A DNA stretch of 64,000 bases from an uncultured Clostridia bacterium. GTDB lineage: Bacteria > Bacillota > Clostridia > Oscillospirales > Acutalibacteraceae. The stretch spans positions 1-64,000 of the forward strand of contig CAMFSU010000020.1 of the NCBI GenBank assembly GCA_945983355.1, read 5' to 3'. Positions 13,745 to 50,304 of this stretch are shown here, piece after piece. Under the pieces are notes generated by a model. That model ran no database searches and was not told where the DNA came from. It saw only the letters and a program-made list of their open reading frames with translations. A program made the position numbers and the translations under genes. Position 1 is the first letter of the stretch, and every line of letters starts with the position of its first letter.

Positions 13745-14016
13745 ATTCACTCCACAAAAATAAAAATAGCGCCCATCCATCCTAAAACCTTAGGACGAAT
13801 AGACGCAATATCCGCGGTGCCACCTAAATTACCTTTTAAAAAGGTCACTTTAACTTGATTTAACGCATCAATAACGGCGCCCCTACTAAACCAAAGGTTT
13901 TTCAGTTTGCTGCTCCGAAGTGTTCTTCACTTTTTCTATTTACCGCATTTCCACCGTCGGCGGCTCTCTTTAAAAAATCAAAAAAGCTACTTTTCTTCAT
14001 TAAGGCATTTTTATAT
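13745..14016 (-). promoter_or_regulatory. T-box riboswitch (Asn specifier) controlling asnS-asnA
   Basis: On the - strand: AGAGAG stem-I element, GAAGAACACTTCGGAGC specifier region with AAC (Asn) at 13924..13922, T-box AGGTGGCACCGCGG at ~13813-13826, and terminator stem GCGTCTATTCGTCCTAA/TTAGGATGGATGGGCGC + TATTTTT. Confidence 0.96.
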
Positions 14017-24807: not shown

Positions 24808-24843
24808 AAAATACCTCTATCAATTTGATAGAGGTATTTTTTA
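24808..24843. terminator. Bidirectional terminator between convergent genes
   Basis: AAATACCTCTATCAA / TTTGATAGAGGTATTT with A/T tracts on both sides. Confidence 0.85.
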
Positions 24844-27426
24844 TATCTTCTTATATACCCTTTTTAAAATTTCACACATTGGTATAATTAATACTGCTAA
24901 TAAAATAGCAACAACAAACTGCCAAAGTTTAAGAATTGTCAAACCAAAGGCAAAACCAACAGGTGTAAACACAAGGAAAATAATTATAAATGCGGTTGAG
25001 AAAACCGACAGGTTCATAAATCTGTTAGAAAATACATCCTTTGTAAAAATGCTGCCGACAAGCTTTGAATTAAAGCAATGTAAAAGCTGCGCAATGCCAA
25101 GCGTCACAAACGCCATAGAGGTTGCAACCTCGGGCGAGGTAAACTGACCAATAATGTAAGAAATGAGTGAAATAATGGCAATTAAAACGCCCTGAACAGC
25201 AAGATTTACAAGAGATTTAACATTTAATATTTTAGAAGCACCGTCAAAACCGTTTTGCTTCATAACTGATTTTTCAGCTTGTTCCTTGCTAAAGGAAATT
25301 GCAGGGGCAACATCAGTTAAAAGGTTGATAATCAAAAGCTGAACAGCAATTAAAATTGGTGATTTAAAAATAACCGAACCAATAAGTAATAGTAAAAGTT
25401 CAGAGAAATTGCAGCTTAAAAGATAAGACACAGTCTTTTTAATATTACTGAAAAATCCTCGACTTTCCTTAATGGCGTGAACTATTGCGCCAAAGTTGTT
25501 TTTAAGAATTATTACATCAGCATTACCCTTTGCAACATCAGCACCATATTTACCGATAGCGCAACCAACATCAGCAATTGCCAAAGCATCGGCATCCTGA
25601 AGACTGTCACCCGTAATAGTTACAACTGCCTTTTTGCTTTGCCAAGCTTTAACAATTCTTGCTTTATGCTCGGGCGAAATGCGGGCAAATACACAATAAT
25701 TTTCAATAACATTTGCAAGTTCTTCATCTGATAAGGCATCAATTTCAGCACCCGAAATCGCTTCGGCTTCATCTTCTAAAAGGCCAATTTTCTTTGCTAT
25801 TGAAACAGCGGTGAGAACATTATCACCCGTTAGCATATTAACCTTAATCTTGGCTTCTTTACAAACCTTAATATCCTTATAAATTTCTTCACGGATTGGC
25901 TCACTAAGTCCCAAAAGGCCTACAAAGGTTAAATCACACTCTATATCCTCATGCTTTGGGTTTGCGGGTATTTCCGAAAGCCTTTTAACAGCGATAGCAA
26001 CATTGCGAAGCCCGTCAGATGCCATTTCGTTATCTATTTTTAAAATACTGTCAGCATCACAGTCACGACACTTTGGCACAATAATTTCAGGGGCACCCTT
26101 AACTATTGCAAAGGGCTGCTCGTTAATAATTGTTAAAATTGTCATGCTCTTGCGCCCAGAATCAAACGGTATAACCGAAATCTTTGGAAATAGTGTGCTA
26201 ATTTCGGCTTCATCTTTATGGTTTAGTTCTTTGCAGGCATCCATTAAAGCATTTTCGGTTGTATCATTATCTAATGTATTACAAGCCGCAGCCAAATTTA
26301 AAACAACCGTTGCTGAATCATCAATAAATCCATCGGCAACATTCAAGACCTTTTTACCGTCATAAACAGCCTGTAAAACCATTTTATTTCTTGTGAAAAT
26401 ACCGGTCTTATCAGCACAAATAACATTTGTTTTTCCGATTTTTTCAAGGGCTGCACTATCTTTAAAAATAATTTTTTCATCAAAAATACGCTTTGCGCCT
26501 GAGGCAATAACAATGGTTGATATTGCATTAAGTCCTTCAGGCATTGCCGCAAAAGCAAGTGCCACAGCATTTAAAAGTGCGGTTAAGGTAACACTTGCAA
26601 ATGGCTCGCTCGATTTAAAGTTTTGAAGCATTGTAATAAAGAAAATCAAAACACAAATGCAAAGAATTAAAATATTAAAGAATTTAGAAATCAGGGTTAA
26701 TTCATTTTGCATTGGCAAACGCTTACCGCCGATTTGCTCATTTATTGCATCAGTTTTGCCTGTTTCAGTGTTAAGGGCAGTTGCAACAACAACCGCCTTT
26801 GCACTGCCGTGTATTGCAGTTGTAGACGCAAAAACCATATTGCTACGCTTTTCTATCGGCACAATATCAACTAAAACAGCATCGGCATTTTTATCAACAG
26901 GAACCTCTTCACCGCTGACTGTCACCTCGTTACAACGAAATTCCGTAGTTTCTATAAGTCGTGCGTCAGCGCAAATATAGTCACCCTCAGAAAGAAGCAT
27001 AATGTCACCGGGTACTAACTCGATAGAATTAACAACCTTTACCACACCGTCACGCAAAACCTTTACCGATGGGTTGGTAGTTTGCTTGATATCCGCCAAT
27101 GTAGTTTCACAGTCAAAAAGGTGGAAAGCCGAAACAACAGCGTTTAAAATAACAATGCCAATTACCAAAAAGCCAAAATAAGCGGTTGGACTTTGGTAAC
27201 TGCTTGCCACAAAAAAGTAAATTAGTGACAAAATCATAAGCAAAATGCCGGTTCTTGTAAATTCAGCAAAAAATGCCTTAATTATTGACGGCTTTTCGGT
27301 TGTTAAAACAACATTTTTGCCGTAAATTTCTTGTTTTTCAACCACTTCGCCATTAGCAAGACCAACTGTGGCATCAACATTATAATGCTTTAAAACTTCT
27401 TCTTTTGAAGAGCTGTGCCAAATCAT
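24841..27426 (-). CDS. P-type ATPase, P2 (Ca2+/cation) family-like, with atypical catalytic motifs
   Basis: VSGEEVPV, AAMPEGL, CADKTGIFTRN, KGAPE, MLTGDN, TGDSLQDADALAIADVGCAIG, INLLTDVAPA; 861 aa. Confidence 0.92.
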   Translation of the reverse strand: MIWHSSSKEEVLKHYNVDATVGLANGEVVEKQEIYGKNVVLTTEKPSIIKAFFAEFTRTGILLMILSLIYFFVASSYQSPTAYFGFLVIGIVILNAVVSAFHLFDCETTLADIKQTTNPSVKVLRDGVVKVVNSIELVPGDIMLLSEGDYICADARLIETTEFRCNEVTVSGEEVPVDKNADAVLVDIVPIEKRSNMVFASTTAIHGSAKAVVVATALNTETGKTDAINEQIGGKRLPMQNELTLISKFFNILILCICVLIFFITMLQNFKSSEPFASVTLTALLNAVALAFAAMPEGLNAISTIVIASGAKRIFDEKIIFKDSAALEKIGKTNVICADKTGIFTRNKMVLQAVYDGKKVLNVADGFIDDSATVVLNLAAACNTLDNDTTENALMDACKELNHKDEAEISTLFPKISVIPFDSGRKSMTILTIINEQPFAIVKGAPEIIVPKCRDCDADSILKIDNEMASDGLRNVAIAVKRLSEIPANPKHEDIECDLTFVGLLGLSEPIREEIYKDIKVCKEAKIKVNMLTGDNVLTAVSIAKKIGLLEDEAEAISGAEIDALSDEELANVIENYCVFARISPEHKARIVKAWQSKKAVVTITGDSLQDADALAIADVGCAIGKYGADVAKGNADVIILKNNFGAIVHAIKESRGFFSNIKKTVSYLLSCNFSELLLLLIGSVIFKSPILIAVQLLIINLLTDVAPAISFSKEQAEKSVMKQNGFDGASKILNVKSLVNLAVQGVLIAIISLISYIIGQFTSPEVATSMAFVTLGIAQLLHCFNSKLVGSIFTKDVFSNRFMNLSVFSTAFIIIFLVFTPVGFAFGLTILKLWQFVVAILLAVLIIPMCEILKRVYKKI

Positions 27427-27437
27427 AATTTCTCCCC

Positions 27438-28286
27438 TTACAAGCTCAAATAATAATCCTTCATGCTTTTAGCATCCTCCGCCTGTGTACCTGCCGATTC
27501 ACAAACAAAGATGGGATTAAGTCCGTATTTTACAACAAGCTCCATAAGTGGCTCAAAATTCGGGCCGTAAACCTCATCCTCAAAGGTTAAGTGCCTTTTT
27601 TCACCGCCTGTTGTATATTCAATTTTAGAAAAATGCGAATGAAAGTTTTTAAAACGGTCTTCACCTAACTGATTTTTAATTTCAAGCAGTATATTTTCAA
27701 AATCGTTTTTATCCTTCAAAATACCTAAATCACGGGCATTAAGGTGACCAAAATCAATACAAGGGATAATTCTTTCATCAATCTTGCAAAGCTCTAACAC
27801 TTCAAAAAGTGTGCCAAGCTGATTAACCTTACCCATTGTTTCGGGACAAATATGAATATTTGAAAGTCCCTCAGCATCAAGCGCCTTTTGTGAAAGAGCC
27901 ATTGTATCCTTTGCAAGAACAAGGGCTTCCTCGCGAGTAATTTTACCGCAAGAGCCGGTGTGAACAATAATTCTATCGCCGCCCATTGCATTAACAGCAC
28001 GGGCAGAAGCCAAGATATAATTTATGGAATTTAAACGCTTTTCTTCATCGACCGATGACATAGAAATATAATAAGGCGCATGCAAAGACAGGGTTATTCC
28101 CTTTTCTTTTGCTATTTTTCCAAGCTCATTAGCTTTATCTAAGCCGATATTTACACCACGGCCACATTGATATTCAAAATGGTCAAGACCCATTTCTACA
28201 AGATATTGCGGAACCTGTAAGCTTGTCTTATAACCAAGTGCTTTAAAGCTGTCGCCTGTTCCCGCAGGGCCAAATTTAGCGGACAT
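27438..28286 (-). CDS. TIM-barrel endonuclease IV (Nfo)-like protein
   Basis: SLHAPYY, IIVHTGSCG, ICPETMGK, CIDFGHLNARDLG, FVCESAG; start set at MSAKFGPAGTG. Confidence 0.8.
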   Translation of the reverse strand: MSAKFGPAGTGDSFKALGYKTSLQVPQYLVEMGLDHFEYQCGRGVNIGLDKANELGKIAKEKGITLSLHAPYYISMSSVDEEKRLNSINYILASARAVNAMGGDRIIVHTGSCGKITREEALVLAKDTMALSQKALDAEGLSNIHICPETMGKVNQLGTLFEVLELCKIDERIIPCIDFGHLNARDLGILKDKNDFENILLEIKNQLGEDRFKNFHSHFSKIEYTTGGEKRHLTFEDEVYGPNFEPLMELVVKYGLNPIFVCESAGTQAEDAKSMKDYYLSL

Positions 28287-28287
28287 A

Positions 28288-28788
28288 TTATTCCTCCGTA
28301 TTGACAATTTTTAGCTTTTTAATCATAAATGCCTCAACCCTGCGCTTCATTCTGAAACGAAGTGAGGTTTCGGGCTTAATGGGTGTTAAAAGAATGGTTT
28401 TAACACCAACAACATTACCACCAAGTGTATCGGTAAAAAGCTGGTCGCCCACAATGGCGGTGTCAACCTTTTTAGTGCCAAGTCGCTTTAAGGCGCGCAA
28501 ATAACCAAACGGCAATGGCTTCAAACCAAGCGATATAAAATCAAGCCCGATTTTTTTAGCAAAAGGTGTTAAGCGTTTAGAATTGGAATTTGACAAAACC
28601 GTCATTTTAATGCCGTTTTCACGCATTAAATTAAGCCATTCGGTAAGACCTTCTGTGAGAACTTGTCCGTGGTGGGTTGAAAGCGTGTTATCAACATCTA
28701 AAATAAGCGCCCTTATGCCATATTTATTTAAAATATCGACCGAAATGTCGGTGACTTTTTCAAGTTTAATTAGGGGTTTCAAAAACAT
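28288..28788 (-). CDS. YqeG-family HAD phosphatase
   Basis: LILDVDNTLSTHHG HAD motif I; VGDQLFTDTLGGNVVGVKTILLTPI. Confidence 0.9.
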   Translation of the reverse strand: MFLKPLIKLEKVTDISVDILNKYGIRALILDVDNTLSTHHGQVLTEGLTEWLNLMRENGIKMTVLSNSNSKRLTPFAKKIGLDFISLGLKPLPFGYLRALKRLGTKKVDTAIVGDQLFTDTLGGNVVGVKTILLTPIKPETSLRFRMKRRVEAFMIKKLKIVNTEE

Positions 28789-49357: not shown

Positions 49358-49455
49358 AACCTCATCTTTCGGATAAACCGACGGATTTAGCACCTTGTAA
49401 AAACAGGTTGCCGGGTTTCATCGGGCCGTGCCCCTCCACCACTCTTGATAAGGAC
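49358..49455 (-). promoter_or_regulatory. SAM-I (S-box) riboswitch upstream of metK
   Basis: - strand CTTATCAAGAGTGGTGGAGGGGCACGGCCCGATGAAACCCGGCAACC...AAGGTGCTAAATCC...GATGAGG. Confidence 0.97.
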
Positions 49456-50142: not shown

Positions 50143-50159
50143 AAGTTATAAAAACTTTC

Positions 50160-50266
50160 ATCTTCTCTCATCCAGACTATACTGTCGGCTTTGGAATTTC
50201 ACCAAATCAGCCAAACGGCTCGCGGGCTATGACCGCCGGTGAGGAATTGCACCTCGCCCTGAAGAT
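50160..50266 (-). promoter_or_regulatory. FMN riboswitch (RFN element)
   Basis: - strand ATCTTCAGGGCGAGGTGCAATTCCTCACCGGCGGTCATAGCCCGCGAGCC...GCTGATTTGGTGAAATTCCAAAGCCGACAGTATAGTCTGGATGAGAGAAGAT. Confidence 0.98.
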
Positions 50267-50304
50267 TATAAAAATATTATATGACATTATTCGACATTTG
50301 TCAA

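Follow-up and report, generated by a model that had tools for sequence, protein, structure and literature searches.

The motifs of P-type ATPases, enzymes familiar from the textbooks, show very little variation. A gene within a 64,000-nucleotide stretch of DNA (the window) from an uncultured Clostridia bacterium encodes one in which the phosphorylation motif reads DKTGIFT, and the question which this locus raises is whether the product is still a pump. A first-pass annotation had drawn attention to the motif, noting that the phosphorylated Asp is kept while the fifth residue is Ile, and had proposed an altered catalytic cycle, a slow pump, or a regulatory or pseudo-ATPase. The motif is real: read directly on the minus strand, the codons GAT AAG ACC GGT ATT TTC ACA lie in an open 861-aa reading frame, with the phosphorylated Asp at position 339 and Ile343 encoded at 26398-26400. 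The motifs PEGL (residues 296-299), KGAPE (443-447) and TGDN (533-536) are present as had been described, and the canonical form is indeed the norm, a DKTGT.T DNA pattern giving 393 matches in 98 genomes of the order. The features discussed below are collected in Table 1.

Table 1. Features of the altered ATPase gene and its upstream neighbour, in window positions
Feature	Positions	Strand	Remarks
Xylose-isomerase-like TIM barrel (endonuclease IV type), upstream neighbour	27438..28307	minus	ORF and PF01261
Altered P2A-type ATPase gene	24841..27426	minus	861 aa, stop codon included; ORF uninterrupted
A-domain loop SGEE, residues 171-174 (canonical TGES)	26905..26916	minus	Alignment
TM4 cation-site motif PEGLN, residues 296-300 (canonical PEGLP)	26527..26541	minus	Glu309 equivalent present (alignment)
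Phosphorylation motif DKTGIFT, residues 339-345 (canonical DKTGTLT)	26392..26412	minus	Asp339 = SERCA Asp351, Ile343 = SERCA Thr355
N-domain ATP-site motif KGAPE, residues 443-447, intact	26086..26100	minus	Alignment; SERCA Lys515 equivalent in 63/63
P-domain motif SEPIR, residues 508-512 (canonical IDPPR)	25891..25905	minus	Alignment
P-domain motif TGDN, residues 533-536, intact	25819..25830	minus	Alignment; Thr625-Gly626-Asp627 in 61/61
P-domain Mg2+/phosphate loop TGDSLQDADAL, residues 605-615 (canonical TGDGVNDAPAL)	25582..25614	minus	Asp703, Asp707 equivalents present
TM5 cation-site residues Asn673, Glu676 (SERCA Asn768, Glu771), intact	25399..25410	minus	Alignment
TM6 cation-site motif NLLTD, residues 701-705 (SERCA Asn796, Thr799, Asp800), intact	25312..25326	minus	Alignment

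The locus and its product

The ATPase gene lies 11 bases downstream of the TIM-barrel gene, with which it is probably co-transcribed. This synteny is limited to genomes on the window's side of the clade described below, and the TIM-barrel gene stands outside the ATPase mechanism. An Rfam search for riboswitch control returned nothing near the ATPase gene.

The protein scores above cut-off with the Pfam models E1-E2_ATPase, Cation_ATPase_N and Cation_ATPase_C. Its 211.8 bits with TIGR01494 (cut-off 62.3), together with the DKTG core, place it in the P-type ATPase superfamily. Among relatives of solved structure, LMCA1, the Ca2+-ATPase of Listeria, matches best (lmo0841; 843 aa, 443 bits, E 2e-131). 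Against TIGR01522 and TIGR01116 the protein reaches 399 bits (cut-off 798) and 358 bits (cut-off 703), values to be read beside those of the canonical relatives L113, L051 and L035, which likewise fall below the cut-offs at 601-693 and 632-654 bits, respectively. Full-length homology, domain order, the phosphorylated Asp and the ATP site are shared with LMCA1 and with P2A pumps of the SERCA/PMR1 type. The window protein differs from these in its lower TIGR01522 score and in its altered DKTGT, TGES, DPPR and GDGVNDAP motifs; it also has, among its SERCA-like cation-site residues, the Glu771 which LMCA1 lacks.

Retained and altered motifs

The motifs of the window protein were compared by alignment with LMCA1 and SERCA. 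SERCA numbering throughout follows the rabbit SERCA1a sequence, which served for numbering only. All of the cation-site residues expected of a P2A pump are present (Glu309, Asn768, Glu771, Asn796, Thr799 and Asp800), and the catalytic residues Asp351, Lys352, Thr353, Gly354, Glu183, Asp703, Asp707, Lys684, Lys515 and Arg560 are unchanged. The P2A catalytic motifs TGES and TGDGVNDAP are absent, SGEE and TGDSLQDAD standing in their place, and the fifth residue of DKTGT is Ile. In SGEE an acid occupies the position of the TGES Ser, the residue whose phosphorylation inhibits KdpB. A structure prediction made from six sequences gave a pLDDT of 34 and was discarded.

Four of these changes had escaped the first-pass annotation, namely SGEE for TGES, PEGLN for PEGLP, EPIR for DPPR and GDSLQDADAL for GDGVNDAPAL. 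Its emphasis on the Ile was well placed as regards the residue itself, but Ile343 alone is not the story, being one of several linked changes. Similarly, the functional proposal fits the homolog pattern described below, except that the term 'pseudo-ATPase' is not established for the window protein, because Asp351, Lys684, Asp703, Asp707 and the A-domain Glu are retained; neither the nucleophile nor the essential ligands have gone, as they have in a pseudoenzyme.

A single clade across the genus

The altered ATPase occurs in 64 of the 70 genomes of the genus, fragments counted, as orthologs of 41-98% identity. The five named relatives are MAGs designated 'Clostridia bacterium' or 'Oscillospiraceae bacterium', four of them labelled as from buffalo, deer or goat gut. 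A search of 394 genomes from 168 genera of the order gave no homolog beyond the genus with more than 39% identity. In a tree of 56 full-length altered and 41 canonical sequences, the former make up one clade (SH-aLRT 100), which sits within the canonical P2A proteins on a stem of 0.64 changes per column. L113, a pump of the same family that is canonical throughout, branches as sister to the clade. On the evidence of alignment and tree, the altered active site is common to about 60 related species rather than a one-off mutation, and the clade has a single origin, descended from an ordinary Ca2+-type pump.

This distribution bears on two further explanations, a sequencing error behind the Ile and a pseudogene in decay, either of which is highly improbable. 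A sequencing error or frameshift is ruled out by a 98%-identical ortholog in the separately assembled MAG RGIG7429 (L054/L068), and an error also by DKTGIFT in orthologs of 57-76% identity (L005, L006, L055, L056 and L058). The loss of motifs and the long stem branch could be read as relaxed constraint, but frames are open in nearly all copies and pairwise dN/dS is 0.035-0.13 in the altered clade versus 0.043-0.070 for canonical pairs. The altered gene is therefore under purifying selection, and decay can be set aside. Conservation within the clade is about equal to that of canonical proteins in the N domain and TM7-10, and looser than theirs in the P domain and TM3-6.

The altered fifth residue does mark a conserved, monophyletic group: the Thr355 position holds Ile, Val or Leu in 61 of 63 members and Thr in all 40 canonical relatives. 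Asp351 is kept in 62 of 63. Lys352, Thr353, Gly354, Thr357, Glu442, Lys515, Thr625-Gly626-Asp627, Lys684 and Asp707 are invariant, and cation-site residues are retained in about 90% of members, some having been lost in L012, L061, L084 and L085. The A-domain and P-domain loops tell a different story. Glu183 is lost in 33 of 62 members and Ser184 replaced in 59, by an acid in 37. In the second loop Asp703 is lost in 18 of 61, Asn706 changed in 57 and Pro709 replaced in every one, by an acid in 54. Of the 56 full-length members, 52 have an acid at 184 or are altered at one or more of Gly182, Glu183, Asp703 and Asp351. The 40 canonical comparison proteins are unchanged at Asp351, Lys352, Thr353, Thr355, Glu183, Ser184, Asp703, Asn706, Asp707 and Pro709, although the contrast at 703-709 holds by construction, since the canonical set was defined by TGDGVNDAP, which is not so for 183, 184 and 355. 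The single member without Asp351, L073 (genome G076), has NKTGILT and an intact TGES, and its Asn could be a single-base assembly error or the sign of a dead copy.

Loss of the motif Thr is very rare elsewhere. In the 394 genomes of the order, a DKTG[I/L/V/M].T pattern gave 30 matches, of which four fall in the window genus and three in other P-type ATPases (L153, L158 and L159); the remaining matches outside the genus were mostly not P-type ATPases, being unrelated or unreadable as such. A similar, narrower pattern found no other P-type ATPase in 300 genomes of the phylum. The three are also altered at TGES (TGDT, TGEA and TGDR) and in the GDG loop (GDGVADA, GDSSNDA and GIGAADV, respectively). 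Since all three independent cases carry other changes, loss of the motif Thr appears, at the level of sequence, to mark a wider change in the active site. The motif reads DKTGVLT in L153 and DKTGVIT in L158. These two, shorter P1B-like ATPases of other genera in the order with TGES and GDGxND also altered, are possibly further independent cases.

Possible readings: a stalled or a rewired cycle

The reading which we favour over its rivals, with a probability of about 0.45, is that the window protein is a turnover-impaired P2A derivative which would bind ATP and cations and could be phosphorylated. ATP and divalent cation binding would be retained, as would phosphorylation on Asp339. The enzyme would then turn over slowly or stall as the phosphoenzyme, because the cycle-completing TGES loop and the Mg2+/phosphate loop GDGVNDAP are both altered. 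Rather than exporting in bulk, it may act as a switch that responds to cations and ATP, or as a very slow pump.

KdpB offers a precedent. With S162D in its TGES motif the enzyme loses all ATPase activity and is trapped as E1~P, whilst with E161Q it is trapped as E2-P, in both cases with high phosphoenzyme levels (PMC7535926). We would expect phosphorylation without normal turnover in the window clade too, because an acid occupies the equivalent Ser position in the SGEE of the window protein and the Glu is missing from half of the members; for Ser184 this is an argument by analogy, as KdpB belongs to a different subfamily (P1A). The window protein resembles the inhibited, E1~P-trapped form of KdpB (S162-P or S162D) in its acid at the TGES Ser (PMC7535926), but the modification of KdpB is reversible, whereas that of the window protein is genetically fixed and accompanied by other motif changes.

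The clade-wide pattern, in which Asp351, the ATP-site residues and most cation sites are kept while Glu183 or Ser184 is altered, would suit a stalled pump, as would purifying selection. On the other side, the cycle of the window protein itself may be intact, since Glu183, Asp703 and Asp707 are all retained there. Against a role as a switch stands the finding that no conserved partner on which it might act emerged: across the genus the altered ATPase has no constant neighbour, the preceding gene being nfo on the window's side of the clade but glyA or purB elsewhere. On one side of the clade (L074-L077, L100, L101, L105 and L108) the ATPase lies downstream of glyA and convergent with what, from the look of its sequence, we take to be a gene for an MgtE-type Mg2+ transporter.

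The distribution of acids lends itself to the main rival, that of a working cation pump whose active site has been rewired and compensated, with different kinetics or a different ion preference. In such a pump, either 183 or 184 would provide the phosphatase acid and either 703 or 706 the one that binds Mg2+, with Pro709 giving way to a new acid. An acid is indeed found at 183 or 184 in 61 of 62 members and at 703 or 706 in 59 of 61, and the 703-709 loop has at least three acids in 56 of 61, versus exactly two in canonical relatives. Where 183 or 703 has lost its acid, one tends to be present at 184 or 706 instead. This tendency is strong by Fisher test and suggests compensation rather than loss, but on the tree it comes down to 4 and 2 informative pairs and is not significant; with so few independent events, compensation is suggestive only. 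The ion-site residues, mostly intact, also speak for a rewired pump. Against it, KdpB with an acid in place of the TGES Ser does not turn over (PMC7535926), and the clade includes the members noted above which lack cation-site residues or the phosphorylated Asp. We regard a rewired pump as possible, though on balance doubtful.

Other Ca2+ exporters in the genus do not settle the choice. The altered protein is the sole P2-type ATPase (by PF00689) in 50 of the 70 genomes; a canonical pump stands alongside it in 14 and alone in 3. Na/Ca exchangers (PF01699) occur in 32 of the 70. Another candidate exporter, canonical pump or exchanger, is thus present in 44 of the 64 carrier genomes, in keeping with a stalled pump, and neither in 20, all of them genomes in which the altered protein is the sole P2-type ATPase, which would favour a working one; these absences are soft, since many assemblies are incomplete. 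The distribution cuts both ways between switch and slow pump. PF01699 almost never accompanies a canonical pump (1/17 versus 31/53 genomes; Fisher p 1.5e-4, uncorrected for phylogeny).

A second, more degenerate clade

Starting from L159, a family was found that spans genus g69 of family f26, with a match in 58 of 60 genomes. Among those read, 38 sequences (L173-L202, L209-L216) show clear degeneration: 8 have Glu or Gly in place of the phosphorylated Asp, and little or nothing remains of TGES, GDGVND and the TM5/TM6 site residues. All 38 fall into a single clade (support 100), separate in origin from the window clade, with dN/dS of 0.06-0.18. In 14 of 15 loci (L217-L231) the ATPase gene is directly followed by a co-directional PF04018 (DUF368) gene, in most cases no more than 200 bp away; PF04018 proteins are undecaprenyl-phosphate (C55-P) translocases (PMC9876793). 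The arrangement suggests that the g69 protein is a pseudo-pump working with PopT. A similar link was sought in the window genus and rejected, as just 20 of its 70 genomes carry PF04018, and not next to the ATPase gene. Both clades are genus-wide, conserved and P2-derived, belong to the same order and are altered at DKTG, TGES and GDG, but they arose independently, and that of g69 is far more degenerate, its ion sites gone and its genes linked to PF04018.

The g69 clade shows that wholly dead P-type ATPases can be maintained genus-wide under purifying selection within this order, which gives some weight to the suggestion that the window protein, too, is a fully dead pseudo-pump, neither hydrolysing ATP nor transporting and serving as a cation- or nucleotide-binding scaffold. 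The change of Asp351 to Asn in one member of its clade and the missing Asp703 in others point the same way. A pure scaffold, however, would need neither Asp351 nor the ATP-site residues, which are nearly always and invariably kept, respectively, and the window protein has the residues known as essential. We consider a fully dead protein unlikely.

Common themes and wider significance

Taking the two clades together, we put forward, tentatively, that gut Clostridia have repeatedly, at least twice genus-wide, made P-type ATPases into conserved, vertically kept, non-cycling proteins, the one ion- and ATP-binding, the other wholly dead and PopT-coupled. If true, these would represent a class of regulatory pseudo-pumps undescribed in the open literature searched. 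No open-access report of bacterial proteins of this kind was found, and the literature searched held neither mutational data on SERCA Thr355, Asp703 or Asn706 nor a paper on the phosphate-positioning role which the first-pass annotation gives to the motif Thr. The eukaryotic TMEM94/ERMA is a disputed P-type ATPase-like protein without TGES, whose catalytic cycle has been questioned (PMC12134183). It shares the P-type architecture, whereas the window protein retains DKTG and its nucleotide- and cation-site residues.

In the window clade, nature has varied the dephosphorylation and Mg2+ loops across about 60 species and left the phosphorylated Asp, the ATP site and the ion sites in place. Comparing these species offers a way to test which elements of the cycle can be uncoupled from one another, and whether a P-type pump is able to act as a switch. 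It also carries a warning for annotation, as genes of this kind are easily labelled 'calcium-transporting ATPase'.

Elsewhere in the window, on the minus strand, lie three ordinary RNA elements: a T-box leader (13788-14012), a SAM riboswitch ahead of metK (49359-49454) and an FMN riboswitch ahead of a gene for a RibU-like membrane protein (50156-50270).
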